Positions 16,788 to 50,687 of a DNA stretch of 64,000 bases are shown here, piece by piece. The notes under the pieces were generated by a model. That model did not search any database. It was not told where the DNA came from and saw nothing but the letters and a program-made list of their open reading frames with translations. This DNA comes from Kordia sp. (GTDB lineage Bacteria; Bacteroidota; Bacteroidia; Flavobacteriales; Flavobacteriaceae), in NCBI RefSeq assembly GCF_022447245.1, contig NZ_JAKVBC010000009.1, positions 1-64,000 of the forward strand. Direction: 5' to 3'. The first letter of the stretch is position 1. Each line of letters begins with the position of its first letter. Both the position numbers and the translations under genes were made by a program.

Positions 16788-17117
16788 TAAAACAAAATTA
16801 TATACGTAATTACTCGATAATCGAGCTTCAAATGTTTCGACGCTTGCGTCAATTTTTTTTAGTCGTTTTTTATAAACGGCTTCGCGAATGTTCCTCGAAG
16901 TAGATAACTATTTTTTGGCATGTCCGCAATACGGTCAGGCTTTCAGCTATATCTTTTTAATACAATCATTACGAGATGCATTTTGAAGTGGTATCAAAAT
17001 CTCCTAAAAAAGAACCAGATTCCTTCGTCGCAAACTCCTCGTAATGACGTTTCAATTGTTAAAAAGGATGCCGCTTCTATCCTTCATGCAACATCGATTA
17101 CTATGTAGTGTTTAGAA
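16788..17117. other. Gap with an inverted-repeat (REP-like) element
   Basis: 330 bases between two operon members with no convincing gene. Much of it is taken up by an inverted-repeat element (16964-17049) of a dispersed family. The part 16825-16915 (ATTACTCGATAATCGAG and similar) also contains short palindromes. Confidence 0.6.
16964..17049. repeat. Dispersed inverted-repeat element, CATTACGAG type, copy 1
   Basis: Terminal arms CATTACGAG (16967-16975) and CTCGTAATG (17038-17046) flank a core containing CCTTCGTCGC. Related elements at 48778-48908 and 50766-50849 share the ends and the ATTGCTTCGTC-like core. This resembles the widespread bacterial REP-type repeat beginning GTCATTGCGAG. Confidence 0.8.
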
Positions 17118-46221: not shown

Positions 46222-46445
46222 AAGAATAAATTTAATTTGTTTTAAATGTAACATAAAAAAATCATGCCAAAAAATTTTATTAATTATTTTGGTGATTAGA
46301 TATTTTCTTAAATATCAAACGATTAATTATTATTTGAATTGTATCTAAATTAGGTTCGTATGTGTGAATTACGTAATTCTACTTGGCTTTTTTGAAAAAA
46401 CATCCGTTAAATTTATGGATACCATATAACAAAACTAACCACATT

Positions 46446-47948
46446 ATGAATGGATTACTCTTTCAGTTACCTAAAACGGTAACTAAGTCAAATCTCAAAC
46501 AAGCAATGCAACAAGCTATTGAAATTGAGATTGCTACGATTCCCGTCTACTTATACACCTATTATTCCATAAACAGAGTTCCTTGTCAGTCTGGTATAGA
46601 AACCCAAATTCTAGCAGACATGAAGGCAACTCAAAAAGGAAAGAAAAACAGAAAAACGGATGCGCAATTGCAAGAAGCAGCACAACAGTTAGCTTTGGAT
46701 ATCATGGTTTTTGCCAACAAAGCAGGCGCATTGATTATGAGTGTTGCCGTAGAAGAAATGTTACACATGTCATTATCTTCAAATATTAAAAATGCATTAA
46801 AGCCTCCGTATGGTGGTACTCCAGAATTGGTCGGAAAAACACCAAAAGTTTGGCCAGCATATTTGCCAGGACACATCCCTGGATTTCCAATTAATCGAGG
46901 GAAATTAAACAAAGAACAATTACATGCTTTCCTATTAATTGAAAGTCCATTACCATTTACAGGCGGAAAAGAAAAAGGGAATGCCATTGAATACACAACA
47001 ATTGGAGCATATTATGATATGATTATAAAGTGTATAAATGACGAGTTAAAAGACTCTGATTTTAATGGTGATGCTCCACAATTGGTGCCTGGGAAAGGAT
47101 ATTATGCGCAAAATAATATCGATACAGTATATTACGATAAAGATCATAAAGCACAGTTTCCAAATGATGAACACAGTGGTGGATTGATTCATGTAAAGGA
47201 TAAAAAATCTGCAGTGTATGCGATGGACGAAATTGTTGAACAAGGAGAAGGTGCAAGTTTCGAAATAAATATTGACGGAAAAAAAGATAAAATAGTAGGC
47301 GATCATTTAACACCTACTGGAGAAGTTGTGTGTCCATTATTCCCTTTAGGAAGCGGAATGACAAATCCGTTAGATTATGATGATCATGAGGCTGACCATG
47401 AATTATCGCATTTTGATAAATTCTTAGAAGTGTACTGTACGATTGAACGTAAAAATCACGAATTAAATACTTTTCTAAACACGAAAGATTTTGACTTTAC
47501 GAAATACTTTGTAAGAGACCTTCCAACCAATCCAAGCACTTCTGATTATCCAAAAGCAATTCAAGATGTTTCCAATCTAACGAATGCAATTTATACATAC
47601 ATCTTTGTGATGGCAGAAGCATGTTATAAAACTGCTGGTCATAAACAATATGAAATCTTTATGTTTGGAATTCACAAATCTATGATTTGGTTATTAGACA
47701 ATTTGTGTGGGACAATGGCAAAATTAAATTATACAGATAGTCATGGTCAAACGCAAAATGTTGCGGCAACTCTAGAGGATTACAATTTTGATCCTTCATC
47801 AAGTCCAAAATCTCAAATAATCGACTTAGCAGGAATTGCTATAGCATCAAGTTCTATAGTCTCTCAAGGCTTATTAGATAGAATTAAAGACCTGCCAGAT
47901 GTGCCTTTAGAAGCTTATTTAGTTGAAAACAATAAAGGGATTATGTAA
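46446..47948 (+). CDS. Ferritin-like protein of the VioB/PF12902 type, cluster gene 1
   Basis: 500 aa from the ATG at 46446 (MNGLLFQLPKTVTKSNLKQA); a longer frame begins upstream but does not add family sequence. Residues ~15-200 form the ferritin-like domain: AIEIEIATIPVYLYTYYSI and VEEMLHMSLSSNIKNAL, with Glu-x-x-His type diiron ligands. A second helical region follows (HELSHFDKFLEVYCTIE, GHKQYEIFMFGIHKSMIWL). The family includes the iminophenyl-pyruvate dimer synthase of violacein biosynthesis, but here it heads a cluster with a Cys-rich protein and a DUF692 enzyme. A role in oxidation or metal handling of the Cys-rich product is inference. Confidence 0.82.
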   Translation: MNGLLFQLPKTVTKSNLKQAMQQAIEIEIATIPVYLYTYYSINRVPCQSGIETQILADMKATQKGKKNRKTDAQLQEAAQQLALDIMVFANKAGALIMSVAVEEMLHMSLSSNIKNALKPPYGGTPELVGKTPKVWPAYLPGHIPGFPINRGKLNKEQLHAFLLIESPLPFTGGKEKGNAIEYTTIGAYYDMIIKCINDELKDSDFNGDAPQLVPGKGYYAQNNIDTVYYDKDHKAQFPNDEHSGGLIHVKDKKSAVYAMDEIVEQGEGASFEINIDGKKDKIVGDHLTPTGEVVCPLFPLGSGMTNPLDYDDHEADHELSHFDKFLEVYCTIERKNHELNTFLNTKDFDFTKYFVRDLPTNPSTSDYPKAIQDVSNLTNAIYTYIFVMAEACYKTAGHKQYEIFMFGIHKSMIWLLDNLCGTMAKLNYTDSHGQTQNVAATLEDYNFDPSSSPKSQIIDLAGIAIASSSIVSQGLLDRIKDLPDVPLEAYLVENNKGIM

Positions 47949-47966
47949 TTTAAAAAGTGTAAAAAA

Positions 47967-48758
47967 ATGAAAGATTTTAAATATAGCGCATTAAACAGTT
48001 GCGGAGCAAATAGTTGTAGCAAATCAAGTTCGAGCGGACCTAATAATTGCGGAAGCAGTAGTGGCGCATCAAATGGATGTGGAAGCAGTGGAAGTAGTGG
48101 TTCAAATGGTTGTGGAAGTAGCGGAGGATCTTCTAACGGTTGTGGAGGCTCAAGTACACCATCAAAACAAAAAGACATTGCAGTGCCTTTAGAATTGCAT
48201 GCATGTATGGGATTAAACGCTTGTAAAGGGCATGATCGCTTTGGAACCAATGGTTGTGCTGGTTCTGGATATTGTGCAACCCAAGTTCATAGTTGTCATA
48301 CTTTAAACAATTGCCGTGGTCAAGGTGGTTGTGGATTGTATGGAGATACCGAAGAGCAATGCCGCCCTGGAGCCAATGACTGTGCATGGCAAGGAAGTTG
48401 TGGAACACCAATTCCTGCAGAACGTTTTATTACCCAAGGACCAAATAAAGGAAGAAGTGTGTGGCAGTTGGCTCGCAAGCTTTTTGAAGAGCGCATGGAT
48501 AAATCGCGTAGAACGGTAAAAGATGCACCTTTTCAATATGGACCGCCAATCAAATGGTTGCGTGCAAACGGAAGAGGAGAATCTTGTGGAAGTAGTGGAG
48601 ATAAATATTGTTCTTTTGGATTAAACAACCCAGAGAAAAGCGCCAATGAATTTTGTCTAGAAAGCAGTAAAGAAATCAACAATACGCTTGAAAATTGCGG
48701 TTGTGATGATGATAAAAAGAAAAAGAAATCCTCAAAGAAGAAAGCTGCTAAAAAGTAA
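47967..48758 (+). CDS. Cys-rich candidate precursor protein, cluster gene 2
   Basis: 263 aa with 21 Cys and no signal peptide. Residues ~1-65 are Ser/Gly/Asn low complexity with periodic NGCGSSG units. Residues ~75-150 hold a Cys core spaced mainly CX5C or CX6C: HACMGLNACKG, GCAGSGYCATQ, CHTLNNCRGQGGCG, CRPGANDCAWQGSC. A non-Cys region follows (SVWQLARKLFEERMDKSRRT, VKDAPFQYGPPIKWLR), then four-five Cys (ESCGSSGDKYCSFG, ENCGCDDD) and a Lys-rich tail. It stands directly before a DUF692 (MNIO) enzyme and DUF2063 partner, so it is the natural substrate of that pair: MNIO enzymes modify Cys in peptides. Much longer than known precursors (~50-100 aa). Confidence 0.82.
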   Translation: MKDFKYSALNSCGANSCSKSSSSGPNNCGSSSGASNGCGSSGSSGSNGCGSSGGSSNGCGGSSTPSKQKDIAVPLELHACMGLNACKGHDRFGTNGCAGSGYCATQVHSCHTLNNCRGQGGCGLYGDTEEQCRPGANDCAWQGSCGTPIPAERFITQGPNKGRSVWQLARKLFEERMDKSRRTVKDAPFQYGPPIKWLRANGRGESCGSSGDKYCSFGLNNPEKSANEFCLESSKEINNTLENCGCDDDKKKKKSSKKKAAKK

Positions 48759-48777
48759 ATAGTAGTATAATATAATA

Positions 48778-48908
48778 CGTCATTGCGAGAATTTTGCGCA
48801 TTGAGCGAATGTGAAATGCAAAATTCGTGGTAATCTGTGAGTTTCAAAAACATTACATTTTTTTGATATAAACAGATTGCTTCGTCTTACTTCTTCGCAA
48901 TGACGTAT
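48778..48908. repeat. Dispersed inverted-repeat element, copy 2, inside the MNIO cluster
   Basis: Ends CGTCATTGCGAG and CGCAATGACG flank ~110 bases with AGATTGCTTCGTC. It belongs to the family of copies at 16964-17049 and 50766-50849. It separates the Cys-rich gene from the MNIO gene and is able to form a long stem in the transcript, which could set unequal expression of the substrate and enzymes. Confidence 0.8.
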
Positions 48909-48936
48909 TAAAAAAGCAAAAGTAGCCAACAAAATA

Positions 48937-49869
48937 ATGAAACAAAAAGTACAAGAACTTCCCGATTTAGGCTTAGGATTAGGGCTGCGTGGAGAACATT
49001 TCAATCATATACTAGAACATCGGCCAGCGGTAGATTGGTTTGAAATTATTTCCGAGAACTTTATGGATTCTGGTGGACGACCACGTTATGTGTTGGATCA
49101 AATTGCAGAAAAGTATCCAATTGTTATGCACGGCGTTTCTATGTCAATTGGTAGTACAGATCCATTGAATTTTGAATATCTAAAAGGCTTAAAAAAACTA
49201 GCTGATGAAATCAATCCGAAGTGGATCAGTGATCATTTGTGTTGGACAGGTGTATTGAGTCTTAACTCGCACGATTTATTACCTGTAGTTTTAAATGAAG
49301 AAAGTCTGCAACTCATAACTACTAAAATAAAACAAGTACAAGACTATCTAGAACGCCCGTTAATTCTAGAAAACCCAAGTACCTATTTAACCTTTCAGCA
49401 ATCTACTATTCCTGAATGGCAGTTTTTAAAATACATGGTTGAAGAAACGAATTGTGGCTTATTACTCGATGTAAATAATGTGTATGTGTCTTCGTTTAAC
49501 AATGAATTTGATCCTATTGAATATATAGAAGGTTTGCCATTCGAAAGTATTGTACAAATGCATTTAGCAGGACATCAGCATAATGGCGATCATATCATTG
49601 ATACACATGATAGTCCTGTGGTAGATCCTGTCTGGGAATTATTCAGTTTGGCTTGGGAACGCACTGGTGGAACATCAACTTTATTGGAATGGGACGGAAA
49701 TATTCCAGAATTTGATGTTTGTCATGAAGAATTGCTCAAAGCGAAAAACTATATGGATGGTTTCAAAAAACAATTTGTAAGGTCTGAAGCTATTCAGAAA
49801 GATGAGCAAATGGTTTCCAATCCGATAGATTTTTTAGTGTCGAATGTAGCGAAAGATTTTGTAGAGTAA
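48937..49869 (+). CDS. DUF692 / MNIO family peptide-modifying enzyme, cluster gene 3
   Basis: 310 aa, TIM-barrel multinuclear non-haem iron oxidative enzyme. Motifs in order: GLGLGLRGEHFNHIL, DWFEIISENFMDSGGRP, metal-ligand His in VMHGVSMSIGSTDPLN, WISDHLCWTG, LENPSTYLTF, GLLLDVNNVYVSS, VQMHLAGHQHNGDHIIDTHD and LEWDGNIPEF. Known family members oxidise Cys to oxazolone, thiooxazole or related groups, often with a partner such as MbnC or DUF2063. Start ATG 48937 follows the repeat. Its stop overlaps the ATG of the DUF2063 gene (TAATG). Confidence 0.93.
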   Translation: MKQKVQELPDLGLGLGLRGEHFNHILEHRPAVDWFEIISENFMDSGGRPRYVLDQIAEKYPIVMHGVSMSIGSTDPLNFEYLKGLKKLADEINPKWISDHLCWTGVLSLNSHDLLPVVLNEESLQLITTKIKQVQDYLERPLILENPSTYLTFQQSTIPEWQFLKYMVEETNCGLLLDVNNVYVSSFNNEFDPIEYIEGLPFESIVQMHLAGHQHNGDHIIDTHDSPVVDPVWELFSLAWERTGGTSTLLEWDGNIPEFDVCHEELLKAKNYMDGFKKQFVRSEAIQKDEQMVSNPIDFLVSNVAKDFVE

Positions 49870-50687
49870 TGGAGATTAAAAGAGATACAGCAAGTGAAGT
49901 AGCAGCAAAAACATTTTCAGAAATTCAACACTGGATGCAACATCAATTAATGCATCCACAATTTGGAGGTGATTGTGAAACGTATGTGAAATCTACTTCC
50001 AAACTTTCCGCCAAACAACATTTACAAATTTATCAACGTAGTTATATTGCACGATTGCGCGATTGTATGGAAGCGCAATTTCCAGCTTTAAAACATGCTT
50101 TAGGAAGACCGTTATTTTTACAATTTACCGATTTGTATTTGCTAGAATATCCTTCCAAAAGCTACACTTTAGGTGATTTGGGACAATCTTTTGGGAAATT
50201 TCTAGTAGAAACACGTCCAGACAAAGATGCTGAGGTTAAAGAATCATGGCCAGATTTTATGATAGAATTGGCAGACTTTGAATTTTTAGTCAATACGAGT
50301 TTCGATGAAAAAGCAGATGAAAATTACCAAAAAGCAACATCAAAAACGAACGAAGAGGAATTGGAATTAGTTCCAGTATTTCACTTGTTAAAACATGACT
50401 TTCCCATCAGCTCTTATTACAAAGCCGCAGTAAATGATCGCAATCCAGAATTGCCATTTGCAGAAGAAAGCTATTCTGCATTATTACGTCATAATTACAG
50501 ATTGGGACTTTTTGAAATATATCCTATTCAATATCAATTCTTGATGAAATTCAAAACAACAAAATCTATAAGTAGCGCAAAGCAGTTTCTAATAGATCAA
50601 TTCAATATTGATAAGAAAGAACTCGAAAGTCATTGGCAACAATGGAAAGCAAAATGGTTGGAAGAAGGTTTTTTCATCAAGAAATAA
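49869..50687 (+). CDS. DUF2063 (PF09836) partner protein, cluster gene 4
   Basis: 272 aa. N-terminal DUF2063 domain: IQHWMQHQLMHPQFGGDCET, LSAKQHLQIYQRSYIARLRD, CMEAQFPALKHALGRPLFLQ, followed by YLLEYPSKSYTLGDLGQSFG and a C-terminal helical region. In characterised pairs this type of protein binds the leader peptide and escorts it to the MNIO. Stop/start overlap with the MNIO gene shows translational coupling. Last gene of the cluster; repeat copy 3 follows. Confidence 0.9.
   Translation: MEIKRDTASEVAAKTFSEIQHWMQHQLMHPQFGGDCETYVKSTSKLSAKQHLQIYQRSYIARLRDCMEAQFPALKHALGRPLFLQFTDLYLLEYPSKSYTLGDLGQSFGKFLVETRPDKDAEVKESWPDFMIELADFEFLVNTSFDEKADENYQKATSKTNEEELELVPVFHLLKHDFPISSYYKAAVNDRNPELPFAEESYSALLRHNYRLGLFEIYPIQYQFLMKFKTTKSISSAKQFLIDQFNIDKKELESHWQQWKAKWLEEGFFIKK

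Follow-up and report, generated by a model that had tools for sequence, protein, structure and literature searches.

A ferritin-like protein is encoded together with a BufB-type MNIO, a DUF2063 partner and an apparently signal-less Cys-rich protein in Kordia sp. and in related loci from four phyla

The captophorins, i.e. fontiphorin, oxazolin and the bufferins, are produced by an MNIO of the DUF692 family and a PME1 partner from a Cys-rich precursor (PMC13097082). The MNIO-PME1 products characterised there carry 5-thiooxazole, the hallmark of the group, which shows as a shift of -4 Da per modified Cys and as absorbance at about 305 nm. Bufferins and fontiphorin have been linked to copper (PMC12452194, PMC13097082). 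In a different group, adjamnio-I, the precursors lack a signal peptide, measure 122-293 aa and contain 8 to 21 Cys residues, and the partners are of PME-type 2; signal-less MNIO precursors correlate with type 2 partners (PMC12452194, including its Table 2). Here, a four-gene cluster is described that was found at 46446-50687 of a DNA stretch of 64,000 nucleotides from Kordia sp. (GCF_022447245.1, contig NZ_JAKVBC010000009.1, positions 1-64,000; this whole stretch is called the window). It encodes a ferritin-like protein of the PF12902 family, a Cys-rich protein, an MNIO and a DUF2063 partner, with the ferritin-like gene as a constant member. The reading that we prefer, at somewhat less than even confidence, is that the cluster is a cytosolic maturation module, and that the modified Cys-rich protein and the ferritin-like protein form one metal/redox unit.

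An initial annotation of the window had proposed the order ferritin-like protein, Cys-rich protein with 21 Cys residues, DUF692/MNIO and DUF2063. All four open reading frames were found in this order on the plus strand, three of them with Pfam matches above the gathering scores (Table 1); for the Cys-rich protein no Pfam family was found at E ≤ 0.1. The proposed overlap of one base between the last two genes was also seen, as the stop codon TAA of the MNIO gene occupies 49867-49869 and the ATG of the DUF2063 gene starts at 49869. Likewise, the CX5C spacing occurred five times in the Cys-rich protein (80/86, 97/103, 110/116, 116/122 and 139/145). An alternative, longer frame of the ferritin-like gene with a TTG start begins at 46383. 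The genome contains one MNIO match and one PF12902 match in total.

Relatives were collected by scanning genomes with aligned Cys-rich protein sequences, and the best 80 of 114 loci were examined. They comprise 59 Bacteroidota, 14 Pseudomonadota, 5 Actinomycetota and 2 Acidobacteriota; 21 of the 80 belong to Flavobacterium, so the rows are not independent, and the flanks seen mostly extended only 4 to 5 kb past the core genes. The genes for the ferritin-like protein, the Cys-rich protein and the MNIO were present together in 80 of 80 loci. The DUF2063 gene was present as well in 78, and in the other two the contigs stop inside the MNIO gene. The gene order of the window was kept in 75 loci, while the DUF2063 gene was followed by the ferritin-like gene at the end of the cluster (Cys-rich, MNIO, DUF2063, ferritin-like) in five, the actinomycetes. 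In none of these 80 loci was the Cys-rich gene separated from the MNIO gene or from the ferritin-like gene; separation of the Cys-rich gene from the enzyme pair would, according to the initial annotation, have refuted the proposed cluster.

The cluster is patchy, and only 2 of 249 genomes of its own family carry it, own genome included. PF12902 was found above its cut-off in 13 of 395 genomes of the phylum, with 15 matches, of which 7 lie in the four-gene cluster, 2 are fusions and 6 lie elsewhere. Because PF12902 is so rare and is yet present in all 80 loci that were found via the Cys-rich gene, the linkage is not due to chance. It is therefore extremely improbable that the genes are chance neighbours and that the Cys-rich protein is no MNIO substrate, a view contradicted by the 80 of 80 linkage over four phyla, by the natural fusions and by eight invariant Cys residues. 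The scan of the phylum with the Cys-rich protein matched 11 of 395 genomes (own included), and 7 were accepted as members. The four matches that were dropped had E values of 3.6e-4 or worse; one of them (L010) is a Buf2-like gene with an MNIO, and the other three (L011-L013) gave no match to any of the four cluster genes when both strands were searched. Two other explanations were rejected. A role in phage defence was dismissed since none of the four proteins had a PADLOC match, and plasmid cargo was dismissed since no plasmid record matched the Cys-rich protein; a fusion is nevertheless present on two large Pseudoalteromonas replicons.

The cluster shares several features with bufferin 2 (BufA2-BufB2-BufC2; NF050166/NF050167), namely the order of six Cys residues, a BufB-type MNIO above the cut-off and a DUF2063 partner. 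In contrast to bufferin 2, it has no Sec-like stretch, two further invariant Cys residues, a Trp/Arg helix, a ferritin-like gene in 80 of 80 loci, Gly, Ser, Asn or Ala at MNIO position 254 in 74 of 79 cases, and a precursor below the BufA2 cut-off. The Cys residues C80, C86, C103, C110, C116, C122, C139 and C145 are invariant in all 81 sequences (window plus 80 loci; the denominator 81 is used in this sense throughout), and those at 97, 207 and 215 are kept in 76 of 81. In a comparison by eye, the first six invariant residues have the same order as in a signal-bearing Buf2-like protein (L134/L010, the same place), relative to which there is an insertion between the second and third Cys. Cys-Lys occurs mainly at C86 (Lys in 68 of 81), and Cys-Arg or Cys-Lys at C116 (71 of 81). 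Members with a clear start are about 155-277 aa long, and one relative (L014) contains 22 Cys residues.

The window protein reached 14.6 bits with the BufA2 model NF050166, for which the cut-off is 60, while 37 of 42 members matched it at E ≤ 0.1, with a best value of 2.4e-7. No hydrophobic N-terminal stretch was found, and the hydropathy maximum was 0.24 compared with 2.26-2.48 in three bufferin-type controls (hydropathy only, no SignalP). A value above 2.0 was reached by 1 of 81 members, in an over-extended frame (L091), and 21 of 81 members have fewer than 11 residues before the motif. As the BufA2 cut-off was missed and a Sec-like signal stretch was lacking, the assignment as an ordinary bufferin was rejected, and the Cys-rich protein appears to be a BufA2 relative that lacks a signal peptide and stays in the cytosol. 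The Buf2-like gene with MNIO mentioned above (L010 1444-2669 / L134 1393-2618), which is from the window's own phylum, reached 49.4 bits with NF050166. Since this gene bears a signal and nevertheless scores below 60, the model may miss bufferins of this phylum.

Behind the Cys core, W166, A169, R170 and F173 are invariant in 42 of 42 sequences. They fall into a helix of residues 165-179 in the predicted structure, with a local predicted local distance difference test (pLDDT) score of about 85-89. In oxazolin and bufferin the signal peptide is thought to serve as leader too (PMC13419390). By its conservation, the Trp/Arg helix is a candidate recognition element of the signal-less protein.

With the captophorins the cluster has in common the combination of MNIO, PME1 and a Cys-rich precursor, but it differs from them by the lack of Lys-Cys repeats and of a DUF2282 match, by its apparently cytosolic location and by the ferritin-like partner. 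The window Cys-rich protein also resembles the adjamnio-I precursors in length, Cys number, absence of a signal peptide and a gene directly before the MNIO gene. The adjamnio-I partners are of PME-type 2 and are described as lacking a Pfam DUF2063 match (PMC12452194), whereas all 43 scanned partners of the cluster match PF09836. Compared by the published description, the two precursor families may overlap. Ser/Gly/Cys-rich stretches like the N-terminus of the window protein are also present in the MNIO-linked TIGR04222 proteins; these are described as membrane proteins without DUF2063 partners (PMC12452194), whereas the Cys-rich proteins of the cluster have no hydrophobic N-terminal stretch.

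The MNIO of the window is 93% identical to the MNIO of an uncultured Kordia and is most like BufB (357.3 bits with NF050167, cut-off 310). This score places it as a branch within the bufferin/captophorin MNIO-PME1 group, so that no new class of enzyme needs to be assumed. The initial annotation had suggested a distinct MNIO subtype that is defined by the ferritin-like gene. As a gene cluster this subtype is borne out by the 80 of 80 linkage and by the fusions, while the BufB-like enzyme speaks against a new class. The residues H65, D99, H100, E145, N146, D178, N181, H209, D222, H224 and E251 are present in all filled rows of the alignment (79-80 of 81), and D253 in 78 of 79. The equivalent of the catalytic base, with the correspondence made by motif, is kept in 78 of 79 MNIOs. 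At the specificity site of captophorin MNIOs, Lys-Cys enzymes have Phe and Cys-Lys enzymes have Asp (PMC13097082). The motif-matched equivalent, position 254, is Gly in 55, Ser in 10, Asn in 5, Ala in 4, Asp in 4 and Glu in 1 of the 79 sequences. The PF09836 matches of the DUF2063 proteins had E ≤ 0.001 in 43 of 43 cases (the protein of the window and 42 of its 78 relatives). The base of the MNIO tree was weak (87/8), with long outgroup branches, and we do not claim that the ferritin-linked MNIOs are monophyletic.

The ferritin-like protein had been assigned to the VioB family, and this assignment did not hold, as TIGR04492 gave 21.8 versus a cut-off of 1250; the likeness exists at the domain level only. 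An AlphaFold2 model had a pLDDT of 86.4, and its only PDB matches at E ≤ 0.001 were two chains of 3hl1, a Caulobacter ferritin-like protein (best E 2.2e-6). The best template for VioB is 3hl1 as well, and VioB is reported to have catalase activity with heme b (PMC9705886). The predicted dimetal ligands E28, E104xxH107, E268 and E319xxH322 are identical in 80 of 81 rows, the exception being a short fragment (L079), and in 60 of 60 rows of a second alignment (A4). As judged from the conserved residues, this set would bind two metals.

The cluster proteins share fold and domain with the other PF12902 proteins (VioB domain; CC_0557, PDB 3hl1), several of which are encoded beside oxidative enzymes; what sets them apart is the linkage, or in some cases fusion, to a putative MNIO substrate. 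Apart from L079, they scored 265-675 bits compared with at most 141 for six PF12902 proteins of the phylum outside the cluster, with a profile that was built from the cluster and thus favours it. None of the six genes had a Cys-domain match in its short locus, and three of them (L095-L097) adjoin a GMC oxidoreductase gene as judged by Pfam. In the two plasmid records examined of 72 matched, a PF12902 gene lies beside a GMC oxidoreductase gene (Rhizobium) and beside a LodA/GoxA cysteine tryptophylquinone (CTQ) oxidase gene (Azospirillum). In fungi, PF12902 genes are close to lodA-like genes, and the lodA/goxA products are named quinoproteins (PMC4417212).

Both the resemblance to BufA2 and the ferritin-like fold would suit a cytosolic metal buffer. 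In such a system the modified Cys-rich protein would bind Cu(I) or a different metal as bufferins do, and the ferritin-like protein would serve for metal storage, metal oxidation or the removal of peroxide. The published copper link of bufferins and fontiphorin points in the same direction, as does an Nramp transporter gene, which flanks 8 of 80 loci downstream on the opposite strand (Table 1). This link is however limited to one taxonomic group, as all eight loci are from Mucilaginibacter or other Bacteroidota. The shared neighbour families that were inspected included no recognisable DoxX gene; genes like those for extracytoplasmic function (ECF) sigma factors are scattered over 4 loci, and at E ≤ 0.001 the ferritin-like model matched 3hl1 and no cage ferritins. 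The main point is that no export was seen, whereas bufferins act in the periplasm, and a metal buffer is therefore regarded as rather unlikely.

Natural fusions of the ferritin-like protein with the Cys-rich protein were found in 12 complete loci, 10 bacterial and 2 on phage contigs, and these fusions are new here. An MNIO gene follows the fusion gene in 12 of 12 and a DUF2063 gene does so in 10; next to the two phage fusions no DUF2063 gene was found. In family f3, which belongs to the window's class, 6 of 121 genomes encode a fusion protein of 679-759 aa. Two fusions were found among 299 Pseudomonadota genomes, and two on large replicons of Pseudoalteromonas (P. piscicida 2515 and strain NC201) whose records are listed as plasmids. 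The fusion G839 (L141) consists of a canonical ferritin-like part (362 bits) and a canonical Cys part (176 bits). In the MNIO tree, which does not include the Pseudoalteromonas pair, the MNIO of L141 nests in a clade with split genes (99/92), while the other seven bacterial fusions group with the phage ones (100/99). From this topology, the fused state is taken to have changed at least twice.

In the six fusions of family f3 the E, ExxH and E ligands are invariant and the last ligand pair reads Asp-His. As read from the alignment, the equivalents of C86 and C97 are absent from the fusions except L141. The f3-type fusions and their Pseudomonadota relatives end with a near-identical tail of the RL-A/V-FPPST or RLALPPST type (L122, L104, L105, L123, L124, L125, L140 and L149), and the phage fusions have a related ending, RLVLPPAT. 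The two viral contigs carry the fusion and the MNIO gene beside portal and terminase genes (PHROGs matches). The fusion L143 had no match in the phage record collection, and no phage-borne MNIO was found by title among the literature matches listed.

Whether the two proteins diverged together was addressed with 79 rows that had all four genes; 6 truncated or split rows were dropped, and 55 of the remaining 73 were left after redundancy removal. Partial rank correlations of the distances were highest for the ferritin-like and the Cys-rich protein (0.57), followed by MNIO and DUF2063 (0.47), ferritin-like protein and MNIO (0.45), ferritin-like protein and DUF2063 (0.38), Cys-rich protein and DUF2063 (0.08) and Cys-rich protein and MNIO (-0.31). 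By these partial figures, the Cys-rich protein appears to track the ferritin-like protein and not the enzyme that is supposed to modify it. The observed correlation between the two was reached by 0 of 1000 permutations, which ignore shared ancestry and show only that the genes travel jointly. The plain rank correlations were 0.83 for ferritin-like protein and DUF2063, 0.82 for MNIO and DUF2063, 0.79 for ferritin-like protein and MNIO, 0.69 for ferritin-like and Cys-rich protein, 0.54 for Cys-rich protein and DUF2063 and 0.40 for Cys-rich protein and MNIO.

The same correlation, the conserved predicted dimetal ligands and the fusions to the substrate domain could also mean that a ribosomally synthesized and post-translationally modified peptide (RiPP) is tailored by the ferritin-like protein in addition to the MNIO, with the former as a dimetal oxygenase or oxidase that acts before or after the latter. 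The fusions would then be enzyme-plus-substrate proteins of the kind known from the borosins. This explanation is considered doubtful, though it is the more probable of the two alternatives given to the ferritin-like protein here. The six other PF12902 genes lack a Cys-domain match, the position of several PF12902 genes beside GMC or LodA/GoxA oxidase genes indicates that the fold is used without such a substrate, and outside the motifs no conserved target other than Cys can be seen.

The preferred reading of a cytosolic module would imply the following steps. The DUF2063 protein would present the Cys-rich protein to the MNIO, which would oxidise some of the conserved Cys residues. The likeliest products would be 5-thiooxazoles like those of bufferins and fontiphorin, and the converted residues would be metal-binding heterocycles. 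The modified protein would neither be exported nor be a free metallophore, but would be a dedicated partner of the ferritin-like protein. With its full predicted dimetal ligand set, the latter would act with the Cys-rich protein as one metal/redox unit, as suggested by the linkage, the natural fusions and the co-divergence. The unit might handle O2- or peroxide-dependent chemistry, since several PF12902 genes lie beside oxidases and some clusters add flavin-oxidase and thiamine diphosphate (ThDP) enzyme genes. The simplest account is a two-layer system, in which MNIO and DUF2063 protein would do the maturation and the Cys-rich and ferritin-like proteins would do the work.

Several observations weigh against this reading. 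The fusions would equally suit an enzyme that is fused to its own substrate, and their last ligand pair differs or aligns poorly. The plain correlation of ferritin-like and Cys-rich protein is below those of the other ferritin-like pairs and of MNIO and DUF2063, so the signal rests on partial figures from raw identities. The model of the Cys-rich protein had an overall pLDDT of 62, i.e. low confidence, and was used for the helix alone. Three of the PF12902 genes outside the cluster (L094, L100 and L103) have no adjoining recognised oxidase gene in the 3 to 4 kb seen, flavin genes occur in just 19 of 86 loci and ThDP genes in 20, with neither close to the cluster of the window, and the Nramp gene near eight loci would suit metal handling equally well.

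It is tempting to speculate further, in a proposal that we hold to be improbable, that the MNIO does not make a metallophore but builds a protein-derived metal/redox centre for an enzyme. The heterocycle-bearing Cys domain would then be the cofactor subunit of a two-part or fused ferritin-like oxidase and would have spread with it as a unit through four phyla and phages. LodA-type oxidases would be a parallel, as they have a quinone cofactor that is made from their own side chains.

The MNIO products described from the bufferin group are peptides that bind copper and are exported. If the preferred reading of a cytosolic module is true, MNIOs would also act in the maturation of intracellular proteins that are used in an enzyme or metal complex. 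In the fused form, substrate, modification and metal site can be studied in a single protein, and the cluster is a handle on PF12902 proteins outside violacein-type pathways. It also departs from the correlation that has been published between signal-less precursors and type 2 partners (PMC12452194), since its precursors are signal-less and its scanned partners match PF09836. The word "ferritin" does not occur in the main text of PMC12452194 or PMC13097082. Among the literature matches listed, no link between MNIOs and ferritin was found, and the co-mentions concerned medicine, nanoparticles and moths by title; subscription journals and supplements were outside the scope.

Table 1. Coordinates of the cluster in the window and of features in related loci
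Feature	Position	Strand	Details
Ferritin-like protein	46446-47948	+	500 aa; PF12902 E 4.9e-31, 108.8 bits (cut-off 22.3)
Cys-rich putative MNIO substrate	47967-48758	+	263 aa with 21 Cys residues; signal peptide not observed
Buf2-like six-Cys core, C80 to C122	48204-48332	+	codons 80-122 of the Cys-rich gene
Trp/Arg helix, residues 165-179	48459-48503	+	VWQLARKLFEERMDK; conserved; candidate C-terminal recognition element
REP-like element, inverted ends	48778-48905	.	between Cys-rich gene and MNIO gene
MNIO (DUF692), BufB type	48937-49869	+	310 aa; PF05114 E 7.2e-107
DUF2063 partner, PME-type 1	49869-50687	+	272 aa; PF09836 E 3.4e-16, 59.7 bits (cut-off 27.2)
Phage fusions	L143 4606-7769 (contig of L146); L144 4429-7422 (contig of L145)		with MNIO
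Phage fusion cut by contig end	L147 6460-7386		beside seemingly the same portal/terminase genes
PF12902 beside oxidases, Azospirillum and Rhizobium plasmid loci	L151 4923-8148; L150 4449-6098		
Nramp gene	L039 8659-10050; also L030, L033, L035, L036, L040, L046, L066	opposite	PF01566 in L039, the one tested

Other shared neighbours were counted in 86 loci, the 80 loci and the six fusion loci of family f3, and none came close to being universal. A flavin-oxidase-like gene was near the cluster in 19 loci (the script total of 21 included two matches of 30-35 bits, L014 and L086, which were set aside) and a ThDP-enzyme gene in 20; the arrangements vary and include one fusion locus. Pairs of the two genes lie upstream or downstream of the cluster in L055 (676-4434), L073 (8467-11938), L024 (1017-4465) and L125 (919-4721). 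Pfam recognised Amino_oxidase in the flavin proteins of L073, L125 and L024 and TPP domains in all three ThDP proteins tested; the L055 flavin-oxidase-like protein, whose type makes up 14 of the 19, had no Pfam match. By their predicted products, the pairs suggest a small-molecule pathway in some hosts. A THAP4/nitrobindin-like gene was present in 20 of 86 loci, e.g. L022 (8539-9459), L045 (3832-4686) and L125 (4755-5870), with a weak Pfam match below the cut-off (E 1.7e-4) in one of four tested. None of these three gene types was found in the window between 40001 and 56000. A DUF3078 protein was encoded in 8 of the 80 loci, and one member each of this family and of the scattered sigma-factor genes was checked with Pfam.

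The element between the Cys-rich gene and the MNIO gene, which is like repetitive extragenic palindromic (REP) sequences, is probably no part of the system. Its ends consist of CGTCATTGCGAG and a copy with one mismatch in the opposite orientation, and a further single end of the CGTCATTGCGAG type lies at 17038-17049 of the window.

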